Virus record (IMG/VR): IMGVR_UViG_3300004461_000262
Span: 1 to 20,910 of that record
Origin: a virus
Length of the DNA: 20,910 bases
Strand: one strand, 5' to 3'
Shown here: positions 1 to 10,311 of the stretch, piece by piece
Layout of the letters: each line of letters starts with the position of its first letter
How positions within the stretch are numbered: position 1 is the stretch's first letter
Translations under genes and position numbers: made by a program
The notes under the pieces: model-generated
Told to the model about the DNA's origin: nothing
Databases searched by the model: none
What the model saw: the letters and a program-made list of their open reading frames with translations, nothing else

Positions 1-1
1 G

Positions 2-75
2 TGTCACCCGTCATCTGGTCACCCTCTGGTCACCCGTCATCTGGTCACCAGTCAGTCAGTCCAAAATCGGTCACC
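2..75. repeat. 26-bp-period GGTCACC iteron-like array
   Basis: GGTCACC occurs exactly at 17-23, 28-34, 43-49 and 69-75. A one-mismatch copy (TGTCACC) lies at 2-8. The sites at 17, 43 and 69 are each 26 bp apart, and those at 2 and 28 are also 26 bp apart, so the array is a tandem repeat of a two-site unit. Positions 3-23 and 29-49 are a perfect 21-bp direct repeat; the third unit is degenerate. The array may continue to the left of the window. Confidence 0.75.
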
Positions 76-112
76 ATATGCTGGCTGCGACGCAATTTCC
101 GAAAAAAAATCG

Positions 113-142
113 GTTGCCCCGGTAAAAGTTGCCCCGGTAAAA
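113..142 (+). repeat. 15-bp tandem direct repeat (two units)
   Basis: The unit GTTGCCCCGGTAAAA is present twice head to tail, at 113-127 and 128-142, and runs into an A-tract. It lies between the 26-bp array and the purine-rich tract. Function unknown; it could be another iteron class or a replication-slippage duplication. Confidence 0.8.
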
Positions 143-190
143 AAAAAATTTCAACCGCCAGGGAATGCAGAAAAAAGTCCGCGCCGCATA

Positions 191-268
191 GATACCCGGT
201 AAGAGTAAGAGTAAGAATAAGAGTAGGGGTAAGAGGTAAGAGAAGGGGTAAGAGTATAAGAGAAAAGG
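191..268 (+). repeat. GATACCCGGTA element followed by TAAGAG-rich purine tract
   Basis: GATACCCGGTA (191-201) leads into about 70 bases of imperfect TAAGAG/GTAAGA repeats that are almost pure purine plus T on this strand. The same 11-mer recurs at 2660-2670 and is again followed by TAAGAG repeats (2709-2742), so this is a two-copy non-coding module in the genome. Strand asymmetry of this kind can mark origin-proximal or unwinding sequence, but no function is demonstrated. Confidence 0.6.
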
Positions 269-340
269 ACTTACAGAAGCCTATAAGAGATGAATCCAGT
301 CGAACAGAGGGCGAGGAATCCTCTGTATCCAGTCAAAAAT

Positions 341-543
341 GGGTGACCCTTTATCATAAATCTTACCAAATGGGTGACCCTTTTTAACACAATATTGACC
401 AATATCGGCATAAATGGGTGACCCTTTTATTGCCAAATACCGTCAGGATAGGCATAAGGGTGACCCTTTTTAGATCAGTCGGGAGAAAAATGGGTGACCC
501 TTCTCTTCAAATTCCTATCATATTCCTATCAAATGGGTGACCC
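341..543 (+). repeat. Six GGGTGACCC palindromic iterons/operators
   Basis: GGGTGACCC occurs at 341-349, 372-380, 416-424, 458-466, 492-500 and 535-543. Copies are usually preceded by AAAT and followed by CTTTT, so the symmetric core extends towards AAA-GGGTNACCC-TTT. Start-to-start distances are 31, 44, 42, 34 and 43 bp, close to three or four helical turns, which would place bound proteins on one face of the DNA. The core is a dyad with a single central base, as expected for a dimeric DNA-binding protein. A hairpin reading is possible but weak (3-nt loop). Related copies lie at 1208, 1354, 1455, 2225, 2605, 2647 and 10297. Confidence 0.85.
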
Positions 544-588
544 TTTTGGAAACTGTTTGGACGCAAGGGGTAACGCCAAAAGAAAGTC

Positions 589-618
589 TTGCAATATGTC
601 GGGCAGCCGTGCTATATT
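589..618 (+). promoter_or_regulatory. Candidate sigma70-like promoter for the early operon
   Basis: TTGCAA (589-594) and TATATT (613-618) are separated by 18 bp. Four of six and five of six bases match the -35 and -10 consensus. Transcription from here would begin around 625 and give a leader of about 45 nt before the first start codon at 670. The last GGGTGACCC copy ends 45 bp upstream of the -35 element. Motif match only. Confidence 0.4.
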
Positions 619-669
619 AAGCAATCGATTGGCAATCTGCCATTCATTAACACCAAAGAAAGGACACCA

Positions 670-1635
670 ATGTGCTTAATTATTCATAAGCCATATAAGA
701 AACGTATCCCGTCAGATATTCTCGACCGGGCTAAAAAGATCAATCCACACGGGTTTGGAATCACCTATCTGGACAACGGTCAGACCAAGCGAAAGCTGAC
801 ATATAACGGCATTGATAAGATGCTAGAGACAGACAGACCATTGGTTTGTCATTTCAGATATGCAACGGTTGGTAAGATTAACCTTAACAATGTTCACCCG
901 TTCAACGTAAACAACCGAACTGTCATTTATAGCAACGGCACGGTGGACGGGTTTGGCAACGGTCACGAATCAGACATTGCACACATTGCCAAGCGAGTGC
1001 TTCCCAAGCTCCGCAAACTGGACTGGAAGCCATTCCTAGAGCTTACAGAGACAAGGTTCTGCATCGTTGACAGTAAGAGCTTGCAGGTGCAACGCATCGG
1101 CAAATGGCACGACAAGGATGGCGTGTTCTATAGTAAGGCAAATTGCTTCTACCAGCCAACGTATCATTCACCCTATGGCTCAAAGAATTGGGGCTACAAC
1201 CATACAGGGGTCACCCATAAATCAGAGGATCAAATGAATAGAGTCGCAGTATATGGAACGCTGAAGAGCGGATTTAGTAACAATCGTTTATTGCAGAAAG
1301 CTGACTTAGTCGGAACTGGTAAACTCAAAGACCGCTATCCTCTAGAGGTAAAGGGGTTACCCTATCTCTACGCGGAGAAAGGTGTCGGTGAGTTTGTGGA
1401 TGTCGAGGTTTACGACGTAGATGACGAACTGCTAGCTAGGCTCGACCAGCTAGAGGGTCACCCTAATTGGTATAAGAGAGAAAGGGTTCTGGTAGATATG
1501 GATGACTGGAGCCAATCCACCGCTTGGGTTTATTTCCTTGACGAACCAACGCCGCGGGGCGTAGCGTTTACAGATTCCTATACGGGAGCCGATACAATTA
1601 CAGCAGATCCTTATCTGCCTAACTTTACACTATAA
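670..1635 (+). CDS. Class II glutamine amidotransferase-like / gamma-glutamylcyclotransferase-like fusion protein
   Basis: The 321-residue protein starts at ATG 670, preceded by AAAGAAAGGA at a good distance, which places a cysteine at residue 2 as class II (Ntn-type) amidotransferases require after Met removal. Supporting motifs are HFRYAT (61-66) followed by HPF, and SNGT (88-91), the usual substrate-binding loops. A second domain begins about residue 189: VYGTLK (194-199), then GEF with a candidate catalytic Glu at 241, LDQLEGHP (258-265) and YKRERV, the hallmarks of gamma-glutamylcyclotransferase/YtfP-type proteins. The first domain would hydrolyse or transfer glutamine amide; the second would release 5-oxoproline or remove gamma-glutamyl-amine adducts. 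An in-frame ATG at 1234 with AGAGGA just upstream could produce the second domain alone. Domain assignments are from motifs; the substrate is unknown. Confidence 0.75.
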   Translation: MCLIIHKPYKKRIPSDILDRAKKINPHGFGITYLDNGQTKRKLTYNGIDKMLETDRPLVCHFRYATVGKINLNNVHPFNVNNRTVIYSNGTVDGFGNGHESDIAHIAKRVLPKLRKLDWKPFLELTETRFCIVDSKSLQVQRIGKWHDKDGVFYSKANCFYQPTYHSPYGSKNWGYNHTGVTHKSEDQMNRVAVYGTLKSGFSNNRLLQKADLVGTGKLKDRYPLEVKGLPYLYAEKGVGEFVDVEVYDVDDELLARLDQLEGHPNWYKRERVLVDMDDWSQSTAWVYFLDEPTPRGVAFTDSYTGADTITADPYLPNFTL

Positions 1636-1651
1636 CAAAAGAAAGGACACT

Positions 1652-1855
1652 ATGACATTGTTTATTAAAACATATAAAGAAACCAATTGCTTTGGAACTA
1701 GATGGGTTTGTCAGCCAACGAACTTGGGTAGCTTCGGCTACGAAGGCGGGGCTAGTGATGACAACGAACTAAAGGCAATCTCGAAATGCTTCGCAAAGTA
1801 TCGCGGTAAATACAAAAGCTATTACCAGACAGAGCGAAACGGCAAAGCATATTAA
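1652..1855 (+). CDS. Hypothetical protein, 67 aa
   Basis: This small protein is not recognised. The start ATG is preceded by AAAGAAAGGACACT, the same Shine-Dalgarno cassette used by the genes on either side, and the gene follows the fusion gene after 16 nt, so it is probably co-transcribed. The sequence is soluble-looking, rich in Lys, Tyr, Gly and Asn, with two cysteines in the first half (residues 13 and 20) and one further on. No membrane segment, signal peptide or domain motif is visible. Expression is likely from spacing and ribosome binding site; function is open. Confidence 0.6.
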   Translation: MTLFIKTYKETNCFGTRWVCQPTNLGSFGYEGGASDDNELKAISKCFAKYRGKYKSYYQTERNGKAY

Positions 1856-1874
1856 CCCAAAAGAAAGGAAAAAA

Positions 1875-2189
1875 ATGGACACAAAAAAACACAACGGATG
1901 GACTAACTACGCAACGTGGCGTATCGCTCTCGAAATGTTCGACGGCTATGAAGTAAAGAGGGCAACCAGAGAGGACTGCAAGCAATACGTTGAGCAGTAT
2001 CTTGAAGACAGCACAATGGGAAGGGAACCTTTGCTTTACATTAGCGGGTGGGCAAACGCTTTCCTTATGGATGTCAACTGGCAGGAAATCGCAGACCACC
2101 TTAACGACGAAGCCTCGGAGAACGAGAGCAGGTCTGGAGAGCCAAAGCACATTGACGAAATCATTGATGCTCTATGTCTATTGACATAA
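1875..2189 (+). CDS. Phage NGWTNYATW-type protein, 104 aa
   Basis: The N-terminus reads NGWTNYATWRIALEMFDG, a sequence start seen in many short phage proteins of unknown function (family resemblance from memory). A second conserved-looking part, GWANAFLMDVNWQEIADHL, follows about residue 58. The protein is acidic and probably helical, without membrane segments. Its ATG is preceded by AAAGAAAGGAAAAAA. It ends shortly before a strong hairpin-plus-T-run at 2212-2240, so it may close the first transcription unit. Biochemical role unknown; antagonism of host metabolism or defence would be a guess. Confidence 0.7.
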   Translation: MDTKKHNGWTNYATWRIALEMFDGYEVKRATREDCKQYVEQYLEDSTMGREPLLYISGWANAFLMDVNWQEIADHLNDEASENESRSGEPKHIDEIIDALCLLT

Positions 2190-2211
2190 ACACAAGACAG
2201 ATGTAAAACAG

Positions 2212-2240
2212 GGGTGATCCGAAAGGGTCACCCTTTTTTT
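2212..2240 (+). terminator. Hairpin with GAAA tetraloop and T7 run, built from two repeat copies
   Basis: GGGTGATCC (2212-2220), loop GAAA (2221-2224) and GGGTCACCC (2225-2233) form a continuous 9-bp stem with one G-U wobble, capped by a GNRA-type loop and followed directly by seven T residues (2234-2240). This is textbook intrinsic terminator architecture. The right arm is an exact GGGTNACCC repeat and the left arm a one-base variant. The T run ends at the ATG of the next gene (2241), so the structure would also restrict ribosome access to that start. Confidence 0.75.
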
Positions 2241-2603
2241 ATGGATACACAAAAAAGCAAATTACCAGATAGTGGCAAAAGGTCGGAGTTTTCGACGGGA
2301 GCTGTTCGTGATGCAATGCAGGGCAAGGGAATGCCGTCTCTATTGCCTACAGAGGCTCTAAGGATGGCTTCCAGACGCTTTGAGGATGGTGCTACCAAGT
2401 ATGGCAGGGACAACTGGCGTAAAGGCATTCCTTTGTCCAGATACGTGGATAGCATAAACCGACACTTGTGGGCTTATACCGACGGCTGCACGGAAGAGGA
2501 TCACCTTGGGGCGGTCATTTGGAACTCTATGTGTCTAGCCCAAACCCAGAAGTGGATCGATGACGGAACTCTGCCTAGAGACCTGGATGATTTACACCTA
2601 TAA
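2241..2603 (+). CDS. dATP/dGTP diphosphohydrolase-like (MazZ/MazG-related) protein, 120 aa
   Basis: The sequence GAVRD, then FEDGATKYGRDNWRKG, then SINRHLWAYTDG with EDHLGAVIWNSMCL matches, by memory of motifs, the phage dATP/dGTP diphosphohydrolase N-terminal-type family related to MazZ. Acidic and His residues on successive helices would bind Mg for hydrolysis of dNTP to dNMP. MazZ supplies dGMP for 2-aminoadenine (Z) DNA in some phages, but no PurZ or DatZ partner is visible here, so nucleotide-pool control or host dNTP depletion is equally possible. Start chosen at ATG 2241; an upstream in-frame GTG at 2214 lies inside the terminator hairpin. No good Shine-Dalgarno is free, suggesting structure-controlled translation. 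Confidence 0.65.
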   Translation: MDTQKSKLPDSGKRSEFSTGAVRDAMQGKGMPSLLPTEALRMASRRFEDGATKYGRDNWRKGIPLSRYVDSINRHLWAYTDGCTEEDHLGAVIWNSMCLAQTQKWIDDGTLPRDLDDLHL

Positions 2604-2604
2604 G

Positions 2605-2655
2605 GGGTCACCCTTTTTGTAGCAGCCCGCAGCCAAAAGAGAAAAGGGGTCACCC
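2605..2655 (+). repeat. Pair of GGGTCACCC palindromes, 42 bp apart
   Basis: GGGTCACCC lies at 2605-2613, one base after the stop codon of the diphosphohydrolase-like gene, and again at 2647-2655. The 42-bp spacing equals four helical turns and matches spacings in the left-end array. Each copy is preceded by A/G and followed by a T run. Placement at a gene end resembles stoperators (repressor sites at gene ends known from mycobacteriophage L5); the analogy is inference. Confidence 0.8.
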
Positions 2656-2659
2656 TTTT

Positions 2660-2742
2660 GATACCCGGTAATAGTGATTACCGAGAATGGAGCTACTATA
2701 TATAGTGCCTAAGAGTAAGAGGTAAACTATATCTAGTAAGAG
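2660..2742 (+). promoter_or_regulatory. Non-coding control segment with hairpin and palindrome
   Basis: After GATACCCGGTA (2660-2670) there is a perfect 7-bp hairpin CGGTAAT-AGTG-ATTACCG (2666-2683) without a T run, then a perfect 12-bp palindrome ACTATATATAGT (2695-2706), then TAAGAG repeats (2709-2742). The first and last elements also occur together at 191-268. The segment lies between two gene groups and next to a promoter-like sequence, so a regulatory role is plausible but unproven. Confidence 0.45.
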
Positions 2743-2747
2743 AAGGC

Positions 2748-2776
2748 TTGACAGTAACCGGGTCCATCCTGAGAAT
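2748..2776 (+). promoter_or_regulatory. Candidate promoter TTGACA-17-GAGAAT
   Basis: A perfect -35 hexamer TTGACA (2748-2753) is followed after 17 bp by GAGAAT (2771-2776), which matches four of six -10 bases. Transcription would start close to 2783, almost at the ATG at 2784, which would make the next transcript nearly leaderless. It sits downstream of the hairpin/terminator cluster, where a new transcript would be needed. Confidence 0.35.
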
Positions 2777-2783
2777 GGGGCCT

Positions 2784-3065
2784 ATGAATATATTCCAAAG
2801 AAAAAAGAACCCGCAAAAAAACCAGGACAACCTATCTCTAAGAGAAGCAGACGAAATCATTAAGGACTTCGTTGTGGAATCCAAGAACATCGCTAAGAGA
2901 ACGAAGGAACTAAGAAAAGCATTTATGCTTAACAACCACATACCAAAGTCCTACTTGCAGGATGCTGAGTGGGAATTCGTGCAAAAAGGTCTGCCCTTTT
3001 ATGCTTGCAAAGTATTTGCACTATCAAAGTGTATTGATGAATCTCTGCATCGCAGAGGTAATTAA
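2784..3065 (+). CDS. Hypothetical helical protein, 93 aa
   Basis: Not recognised. ATG 2784 is chosen because GAGAATGGGG lies a few bases upstream; ATG 2775 in the same frame is an alternative that adds three residues. The N-terminal 20 residues are strongly basic and Gln/Asn-rich. The remainder is predicted helical with alternating Lys/Arg and Glu/Asp, and there are two cysteines near the C-terminus. No membrane segment is visible. It begins the second early gene group after the non-coding control segment. Confidence 0.5.
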   Translation: MNIFQRKKNPQKNQDNLSLREADEIIKDFVVESKNIAKRTKELRKAFMLNNHIPKSYLQDAEWEFVQKGLPFYACKVFALSKCIDESLHRRGN

Positions 3066-3266: not shown

Positions 3267-3554
3267 ATGTGGATAGTAACCTGCAACCCAAGAGGAACTT
3301 ATTCCCAGTATGCAAACGTATTTAACAAGAGAGAAGAAGCCGAGAAGCTATACGATCTCTTTGCCGCGGATGGTTTGCCCTGCACCTTGTGTATGGCAAT
3401 TGAGTCCTCGAACAAAACGGAAACCGACGACCTGCAACCTTTAGAGGTTATGGGTAGGAAAAGGTTTGAACAAGAGATGAACAAGATGGCAGACTATTAC
3501 GAATGCACGACCAACAATCATTCCTCAAGACTCACGCTGAAAAGTATGGTCTAA
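3267..3554 (+). CDS. Hypothetical protein, 95 aa
   Basis: Start ATG 3267 (MWIVTCNPRG) is chosen over longer in-frame starts because GAAGGA lies seven bases upstream and the longer frame would overlap the preceding gene extensively. The N-terminal 50 residues (WIVTCNPRGTYSQYANVFNKREEAEKLYDLFAADGL) look like a compact strand-helix fold with a helix rich in Glu/Lys. The C-terminal part is charged and ends in a Thr/Asn/Ser-rich tail that overlaps the next gene by 52 nt. No family identified. Confidence 0.55.
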   Translation: MWIVTCNPRGTYSQYANVFNKREEAEKLYDLFAADGLPCTLCMAIESSNKTETDDLQPLEVMGRKRFEQEMNKMADYYECTTNNHSSRLTLKSMV

Positions 3555-3928
3555 GGGAATCCGTGATTCTGCACACAATTATATTCTTTGTTTTGTTAAA
3601 CGAAAAACATAACCGCAATAAGAGAGAAGGGAAGTATTGGACTTACAACTCAGCCAAGGGTTGGATTCCTTACTTCCCTTTTTTGACGGAACAGCAGATA
3701 GCTAGAACCTTTAGATCATTATCCAAGCAGGGTGCTTTGACCGTATCTAACTACAATAAGAAGAGATACGACAAGACCAAATGGTTTACACTATCACCCG
3801 GTCTTTACCGAGAAGTTAAGCGATCTGATTACTGGAAAAGAGTGGTGTCCAGCATCAGGACAGCCTCGATCAAAACTGATCAACCAATACCAGATATAAA
3901 TATAATAAATATAAAGCCTTATGTATAA
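3503..3928 (+). CDS. Winged-helix replisome-organiser-like replication protein
   Basis: The 141-residue protein shows the layout of phage replication-initiator N-terminal domains: a helix AEKYGLRESVILHTIIFFVLLNE (12-34), then GKYWTYNSAKGWIPYFPFLTEQQIARTFRSLSKQGALTVSNYNKKRYDKTKWFTL split over about 43-97. Elements such as YW.YNS...W...FPF, the recognition helix QIARTFRSLSKQGAL and NKKRYDKTKWF are typical of winged-helix replisome organisers and DnaD/O-like proteins (family knowledge from memory). Such proteins bind origin iterons and recruit helicase. The start overlaps the previous gene by 52 nt without a clear Shine-Dalgarno, suggesting coupling. The C-terminal 40 residues are probably a flexible tail. 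Iterons at 2-75 and 341-543 are candidate targets. Confidence 0.65.
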   Translation: MHDQQSFLKTHAEKYGLRESVILHTIIFFVLLNEKHNRNKREGKYWTYNSAKGWIPYFPFLTEQQIARTFRSLSKQGALTVSNYNKKRYDKTKWFTLSPGLYREVKRSDYWKRVVSSIRTASIKTDQPIPDINIINIKPYV

Positions 3929-6641: not shown

Positions 6642-7012
6642 AAAAAGAAATAAATGTAAACAGGGGAGAGTTTTTTCTCCACAAGGGAAGGATGCTTCGA
6701 TTCAAAGGAACTAAGAGACTATCGGATAGAATGAATTATTCGTTTGAAGACTGGAGATTTGCGGGCGGTATGGTCTTGTCTATATTTCACAGCGAAGAGG
6801 ACGAGAAGAAAGCGTTTGATAAAATAGTTGATTGGGGTCAGAAAAAAATGCTTGATAATAACCGACGCTTGGATAAAAAAAAGGAAATCCTTAATATAAT
6901 GTCTAACCCAATAACCTGCCCTGCGATTATTGATGGATGGGAGAAAGCCAAAAAAGAACAAGACCAAGAGGTATATAAATTCTATGAAAGGAATCCACAA
7001 ATAAATGATTAA
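6638..7012 (+). CDS. Hypothetical protein, 124 aa
   Basis: ATG 6638 is preferred over the in-frame ATG at 6605 because AAAAGGA lies just upstream and the start then overlaps the previous stop as ATGA. The protein has a basic, strand-rich N-terminal half (GEFFLHKGRMLRFKGTKRL) and a charged helical C-terminal half (DKKKEILNIMSNPITCPAIIDGWEKAKKEQDQEVYKFYE). No catalytic motif, membrane helix or signal peptide is visible. No family assigned. Confidence 0.6.
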   Translation: MKKEINVNRGEFFLHKGRMLRFKGTKRLSDRMNYSFEDWRFAGGMVLSIFHSEEDEKKAFDKIVDWGQKKMLDNNRRLDKKKEILNIMSNPITCPAIIDGWEKAKKEQDQEVYKFYERNPQIND

Positions 7013-7322
7013 TAACGATTACGACGCAATCGGCAGAAATTCTATAAGTAGCTTTATGACTTGGGCAGCAGACAGAATAGAGAGGGAATTTTTGGAGAAC
7101 GAGAAGGTGGCGAGAGAATCCGGGGGCATAGATTTTATGCCTTCAGCCAAAAACGTCCAAGGCAGAAGGGTGGTCACCAAGGAAAAGTTACATATTATCA
7201 AATCAATCGAAGAGATGAGAGAGAAGGGCTACACGGTAAAGTATGGTTGTGAGCAGATGGGAATACACTCCTGCACCTTTAGCAGGTGGAAGGCTCTGTT
7301 AAAGGAGGAGGGTCTTCTTTGA
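7005..7322 (+). CDS. Helix-turn-helix DNA-binding protein candidate, 105 aa
   Basis: Residues 58-103 (VTKEKLHIIKSIEEMREKG, then YTVKYGCEQMGIHSCTFSRWKALLKEEG) have the form of a helix-turn-helix of the transposase/MerR-like winged type: a helix, a turn at GIHS and a recognition helix containing TFSRWK. The first 50 residues form a polar helical segment. The gene overlaps its neighbours by 8 nt at the start and by TTGA at the stop. It may be a small regulator, and it is a candidate ligand for the GGGTNACCC palindromes, though nothing in the sequence ties the two. AAAGGA lies 12 bases before ATG. Confidence 0.55.
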   Translation: MINNDYDAIGRNSISSFMTWAADRIEREFLENEKVARESGGIDFMPSAKNVQGRRVVTKEKLHIIKSIEEMREKGYTVKYGCEQMGIHSCTFSRWKALLKEEGLL

Positions 7323-10177: not shown

Positions 10178-10254
<77 letters not shown>

Positions 10255-10279: not shown

Positions 10280-10311
10280 AAAGGGTAGCCTCAAAAGGGT
10301 TACCCTTTTTT
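10280..10311. terminator. Bidirectional terminator between convergent blocks, built on the palindrome
   Basis: AAAGGGTA (10280-10287) pairs with TACCCTTT (10301-10308) followed by T run for plus-strand transcripts. Inside lies the perfect 17-base palindrome AAAAGGGTTACCCTTTT (10293-10309), which can form AAAAGGG-TTA-CCCTTTT in either direction. It sits after the tRNA and five bases before the stop codon side of the first minus-strand gene, so it can stop both operons. The core is the GGGTNACCC repeat. Confidence 0.75.

Follow-up and report, generated by a model that had tools for sequence, protein, structure and literature searches.

Phased site arrays flanking a phage amidoligase gene may belong to a dispersed, stoperator-like operator set

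Iterons of the lambda type lie in or beside the gene of the replication initiator and are conserved together with it. Intrinsic terminators consist of an RNA hairpin followed by a U run. The stoperators and operators of Cluster A mycobacteriophages (L5, Bxb1) are described as many dispersed sites, most of them away from promoters, with a consensus that varies between relatives (PMC6550527). Here we describe a family of sites found in a virus record of 20,910 bases, which was analysed as a whole and is called the window, and in its relatives; the sites occur in three versions, GGGTNACCC, GGGTACCC and GGGTAGCC. As in the L5-type systems, the sites are many and dispersed, most are not at promoters, and the consensus differs between relatives; but nearly all of our sites lie in the early region. 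The consensus of our sites also switches in place. L5 and Bxb1 sites are asymmetric, 13 bp long and served by a known repressor, whereas the sites described here are palindromic in two groups, form phased arrays and have no repressor that we could find. L5-type sites also have mostly one orientation relative to transcription, whereas the GGGTAGCC sites show no preference (five on the coding and five on the template strand in the early coding sequences of genome G019, and 6:5 in L152, 1562-10000); for GGGTNACCC and GGGTACCC, being palindromes, no orientation can be defined. Because the orientation feature failed and no known repressor was found, we do not file this as a stoperator system, though it is dispersed-operator-like. 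Judging by titles and abstract openings, we found no published description of these arrays.

The first-pass annotation of the window had reported six exact copies of GGGTGACCC with spacings of 31, 44, 42, 34 and 43 bp, and both the copies and the spacings were borne out (array A, Table 1). GGGTNACCC occurs 13 times in the window, whereas 100 dinucleotide shuffles contain 0.16 copies on average and never more than 2, and 12 of the 13 lie before position 2656, in agreement with the 2.66 kb claimed earlier. When every 4+4 palindrome with a spacer of 0-4 was scanned in the window, GGGT-N1-ACCC was the most enriched (13 vs 0.14). The A-rich left and T-rich right flanks are also real; they are family-wide and lengthen the palindrome to AAAw-GGGT-N-ACCC-wTTT.

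Table 1. Positions of sites, genes and signals in the window
Feature	Position	Strand	Remark
Low-complexity sequence; degenerate GGTCACC cores at 17, 28, 43 and 69	1-75	+	longer in L072
Array A, six GGGTGACCC, all with central G	341-543	+	starts 341, 372, 416, 458, 492, 535
Sigma70-like promoter TTGCAA-18-TATATT downstream of array A	589-618	+	
First gene after array A: amidotransferase-like N-terminus and gamma-glutamyl cyclotransferase (GGCT)	670-1635	+	
Site GGGTCACCC inside GGCT	1208-1216	+	
Site GGGTTACCC on conserved codons G-L-P of GGCT	1354-1362	+	
Site GGGTCACCC on conserved codons E-G-H-P of GGCT	1455-1463	+	
Strong terminator-like hairpin, 3' arm is a site (2225-2233)	2210-2235	+	
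Two intergenic sites GGGTCACCC, 2605 and 2647, 42 bp apart	2605-2655	+	
Replication-initiation-like protein REPI (PHROG 11233), O/DnaD-like	3503-3928	+	first candidate binder of the first-pass annotation
Small HTH protein	7005-7322	+	second candidate binder of the first-pass annotation
Terminator-like hairpin at the early/structural gene convergence, holds GGGTTACCC at 10297	10280-10308	+	

IMG/VR contigs were anchored on the GGCT gene (51 loci) and on the amidoligase gene (20 loci). Among public phage records the nearest, and the only close one found, is C75C1 (OQ984151). Array A is not at the start of the early region. The window starts between amidoligase and GGCT, and the near-identical contig L072 (= L044; 99.7% identity in the GGCT protein) has the amidoligase gene upstream of array A and, upstream of both, a second array of seven sites, array B. 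Locus after locus shows the succession TerL(-), TerS(-), array B, AMIDO(+), array A, GGCT(+), early operon; the name TerS is given by gene place only, and a PHROGs search gave no match. In this tailed-phage family, arrays A and B flank the amidoligase gene where early and late genes diverge. None of the 16 distant GGCT relatives (L100-L113, L115 and L116; 35-42% identity) has an array; no version occurs more than twice in any of them, and they lack the other marker genes apart from a weak c11 match in L102.

Each of the three versions prevails throughout its own genome. GGGTNACCC is the version of the window group and of the L131/L084 groups; the palindromic GGGTACCC is that of C75C1, G015, G016, G017, G018, L085 and others; the non-palindromic GGGTAGCC is that of G019, G022, G023, G024 and others. 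Mapped on a 25-row tree of GGCT, the versions can be explained by 5 changes, compared with 13.0 for shuffled labels; this clustering is partly due to shared ancestry, and some inner branches of the tree are weak. GGGTACCC and GGGTAGCC are intermixed within one supported seven-member group of this tree. We aligned the DNA of pairs with different versions and asked whether the orthologous place holds the partner's version, for which the random expectation is 0.004-0.014 per site. From L085 (GGGTACCC) to G019 (GGGTAGCC), the partner's version stands at 5 of the 6 alignable sites, and in the reverse direction at 5 of 11; the counts are 4/5 from L085 to L152 and 4/6 back, 4/5 from L149 to G019 and 2/5 from L149 to L152, and 2/2 each from G017 to G019 and to L152. 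The alignable share of sites is limited, being 6/11 for L085 with G019 and 5/25 for L149. In four of these GGGTACCC/GGGTAGCC comparisons the binomial p is 1e-9 to 2e-5, the related phages being non-independent samples. At most of the switched sites viewed in alignment the flanks match and the differences are mainly in the site's own letters, and thus these sites changed where they stood. Between GGGTACCC and GGGTNACCC groups no such switch was seen, which counts against the reading: the partner's version was found at 0 of 1 alignable sites for C75C1 with L131 and 0 of 4 for G015 with L081, and C75C1 with the window, C75C1 with G001 and G015 with the window had zero alignable sites. Pairs of the same version agree at 3/3 (L085-L149), 8/11 (G019-L152), 3/5 (window-L012), 2/3 (C75C1-G015) and 1/2 (L131-G001) sites, with none alignable for window-G001. 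Concerted change in place speaks in favour of the sites being bound by a sequence-specific protein.

The sites are also kept inside genes. With synonymous codons permuted within genes in 12 genomes, early coding sequences hold 61 sites vs 4.73 expected, and late ones 6 vs 0.67. At the W-x-P-F-L motif of GGCT, x is Val in 6 of the 7 GGGTACCC genomes, where its codon GTA creates GGGTACCC, and in 0 of the 14 others, all of which have Lys, Leu, Ile, Thr or Arg at this position. The G-L-P codons read GGG TTA CCC (GGGTTACCC) in 6/10 GGGTNACCC genomes vs 0/11 others (Fisher 0.004, kinship ignored), and the E-G-H-P codons form a site in 7/10 vs 2/11 (Fisher 0.03, kinship likewise ignored).

The spacings of array A are nearer to whole 10.5-bp turns than random spacings are (p=0.007), as the first-pass annotation had proposed. 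Its further claim that all six sites lie on one face depends on the repeat: at 10.8 bp all six fall within 2 bp, but a repeat of 10.5 bp puts the final pair out of register by 4-5 bp (about 140-170 degrees). Arrays are present and phased in the relatives as well. The family set comprised 44 of 68 loci with at least three sites of one version, and its 179 raw spacings came down to 83 after alignable spacers had been dropped. These 83 non-redundant spacings fall in classes of 21-25, 29-36, 41-48 and 53-61 bp, plus two at 14 bp and three at 67-71 bp; none is at 26-28, 37-40 or 49-52 bp, so that the family has classes of 2-5 turns. They are periodic, with R=0.47 at 11.5 bp (p=0.0003, smoothed bootstrap over the 83 spacings from 44 loci). 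For GGGTNACCC and GGGTACCC the period that fits best is 11.0 bp and for GGGTAGCC 12.0 bp, somewhat above 10.5 bp, and therefore the window sites can fairly be said to share "one face" only if the repeat is near 10.8 bp. Within 15 of the 16 arrays of at least two sites, every site has the same central base; in the window group this base is G for array A and C for array B.

A sigma70-like pair starts 65-84 bp before the GGCT start codon in 10 of the 18 sequences scanned, seven with TTGACA or TTGACG and three of the window type with TTGCAA; the number of sigma70-like matches in window positions 1-2800 is not above that in shuffles. An operator within the promoter core was considered: L072, L127, L130, L092, C75C1, L095 and L149 show such an overlap, not above shifted controls, and over 11 genomes the spacers between -35 and -10 hold 4 sites vs 4.7 at shifted positions (p=0.72). 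The spacing of a class I activator was rejected as well, as the distance between array A and the GGCT promoter varies. Only the sites at 2225 and 10297, parts of strong terminator-like hairpins, resemble intrinsic terminators. The two array members folded, 341 and 416, hardly form hairpins; their RNAs reach -2.4 and -4.2 kcal/mol, no more stable than shuffled sequences, and an RNA hairpin was rejected as the function of the array. Read from sequence, the GGGTACCC and GGGTAGCC forms have no comparable RNA stem.

Considering these results, on balance we favor the reading that the array is part of a dispersed, stoperator-like operator set for one putative sequence-specific regulator of the early region. 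A protein on phased operators is probably the simplest account of the concerted switching, the maintenance in coding sequence and the spacing. The putative protein, dimeric for the palindromic forms, would bind each site, and neighbouring bound molecules 2-5 turns apart would build a nucleoprotein array. This array would hold down two sigma70-type early promoters, together with transcription along the early genes, until the hold is released; repression and the block of elongation are proposed from the likeness to stoperators, as presented in PMC6550527 and PMC9283540. The repeated concerted change of sites may be the trace of selection for a new binding specificity, for example one that escapes the repressor of a related phage. 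A bolder version, which we put forward tentatively and consider rather doubtful, is a genome-wide operator code that would extend into the amino-acid sequences of early proteins and be repeatedly rewritten in place, including a step between palindrome and non-palindrome, following a fast-changing regulator of no described repressor family. The dimeric regulator proposed in the first-pass annotation agrees with the palindromic GGGTNACCC and GGGTACCC but not with the homologous GGGTAGCC sites, which are not palindromic.

Which protein would bind? The two candidates named earlier, the proteins at 3503 and 7005, are doubtful, as neither is conserved with the sites, although the HTH protein is possible for the window group. 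In profile tests, REPI is missing from the site-bearing G017, G018, L085 and G019, and the HTH protein gave matches only within the window group and in some GGGTAGCC genomes of the G019/L152 type. The protein at the TerS place has a weak HTH match; in L082 and L154 the protein at this place has no detectable relation to the others (hhalign probability 0.1, remote homology being possible). As one binder for all site forms, REPI, the HTH protein, the C5-cytosine methylase encoded in the window and TerS each failed the profile test. When ten small early ORFs were scanned with Pfam, nothing stronger than weak HTH or DnaA-C matches came up, and these in scattered genomes. In G018 and G017, small ORFs with weak HTH-type matches are located near the slot that separates EXO from endonuclease VII, which is no more than a lead to the place of the regulator; the L085 contig ends in EXO, ahead of this slot. 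No regulator gene conserved with the sites, and no small DNA-binding protein common to all genomes examined, was found. The annotation of C75C1 holds no integrase and no immunity repressor, so that a lysogenic repressor would be conjectural.

One alternative, which we regard as unlikely, is that the sites serve a host DNA-binding protein, a regulator or nucleoid protein, which the phage exploits or titrates, the versions following the host. It would agree with both the lack of a phage regulator conserved with the sites and the switching of versions between close phages. However, the sole genome match of TerL is a binned contig in an Opitutae MAG, which has no arrays, and the flanked GGGTNACCC pattern is absent from this MAG.

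The iteron half of the earlier "operator or iteron array" fares worse, and we find it quite improbable that arrays A and B are replication-origin iterons at which an initiator opens the DNA at the early/late divergence. Phased, directly arrayed, repeated palindromic sites are shared with lambda-type origins, as is an O/DnaD-like protein in the same operon, where DnaB is also encoded, but the window's initiation gene contains no site. In G001, G016 and G017 cumulative GC skew reaches its minimum between amidoligase and TerS; however, this is also the point of transcription divergence, and in C75C1, G015 and G019 the linear GC-skew minimum is at a record end. The operator half fits better, because the sites are maintained in many early coding sequences and persist in genomes that lack the replication-initiation gene.

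It is very hard to see the sites as terminase recognition (cos/pac): array B adjoins the presumed small terminase gene with its weak HTH match, but the sites are dispersed in early genes, and L082 and L154 carry the same GGGTAGCC arrays despite a seemingly unrelated protein at the TerS place. A functionless spread of a mobile or slippage-made palindromic repeat is scarcely credible either: the uniform central base is what local copying would give, but spacers differ, spacings fall in helical classes and orthologous sites differ mainly in their own letters between matching flanks. GGTNACC and GGTACC are restriction-type palindromes, and the window encodes a methylase; a target of a DNA methyltransferase or restriction enzyme is nevertheless most improbable, as no match to this methylase family was found by profile in G015, G016, G017, G018 and G019, which all keep sites, and restriction would select against sites, not favour arrays. 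None of the origin, packaging, methylation, RNA and mobile-repeat readings passes every test.

If the operator reading holds, the concerted change in place among close relatives would be a natural experiment on a regulator and its sites shifting specificity together. The orthologous site set would also offer ready-made probes for fishing out the binding protein in a little-recorded phage family.

Several further features of these genomes were noted. The amidotransferase-like/GGCT fusion is paired with an amidoligase gene in this phage family (670-1635 of the window and 2892-3917 of L072), and in G019 the GGCT gene is two separate ORFs. The low-complexity stretch that separates amidoligase from array A is built of TCTGGTCACC-like units and occupies 1-80 of the window and 4093-4368 of L072. 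Between TerS and array B (about 2110-2200 in L072) lies an element of a T-run, GGGGGC, TATATA repeats and the C-rich run CCCCCGCCCC, cos- or origin-like, which is conserved in L072, L095, L130, L092, L149, L085 and L150; L150, the Opitutae-MAG contig, carries it yet is without arrays. Another palindrome, CCTTAAGG, which is set in a TACCTTAAGGATACC-like context, occurs in L148 (9701-9783 and 13284-13366), L149 (about 720-850) and L085 (about 1740-1850); it lies near the terminase-side promoter and, in L148, within the operon of the REPI-less group. A full tRNA-Arg (TCT) gene stands at 10178-10254 of the window, at the early/structural convergence and directly before the terminator that holds the site motif.
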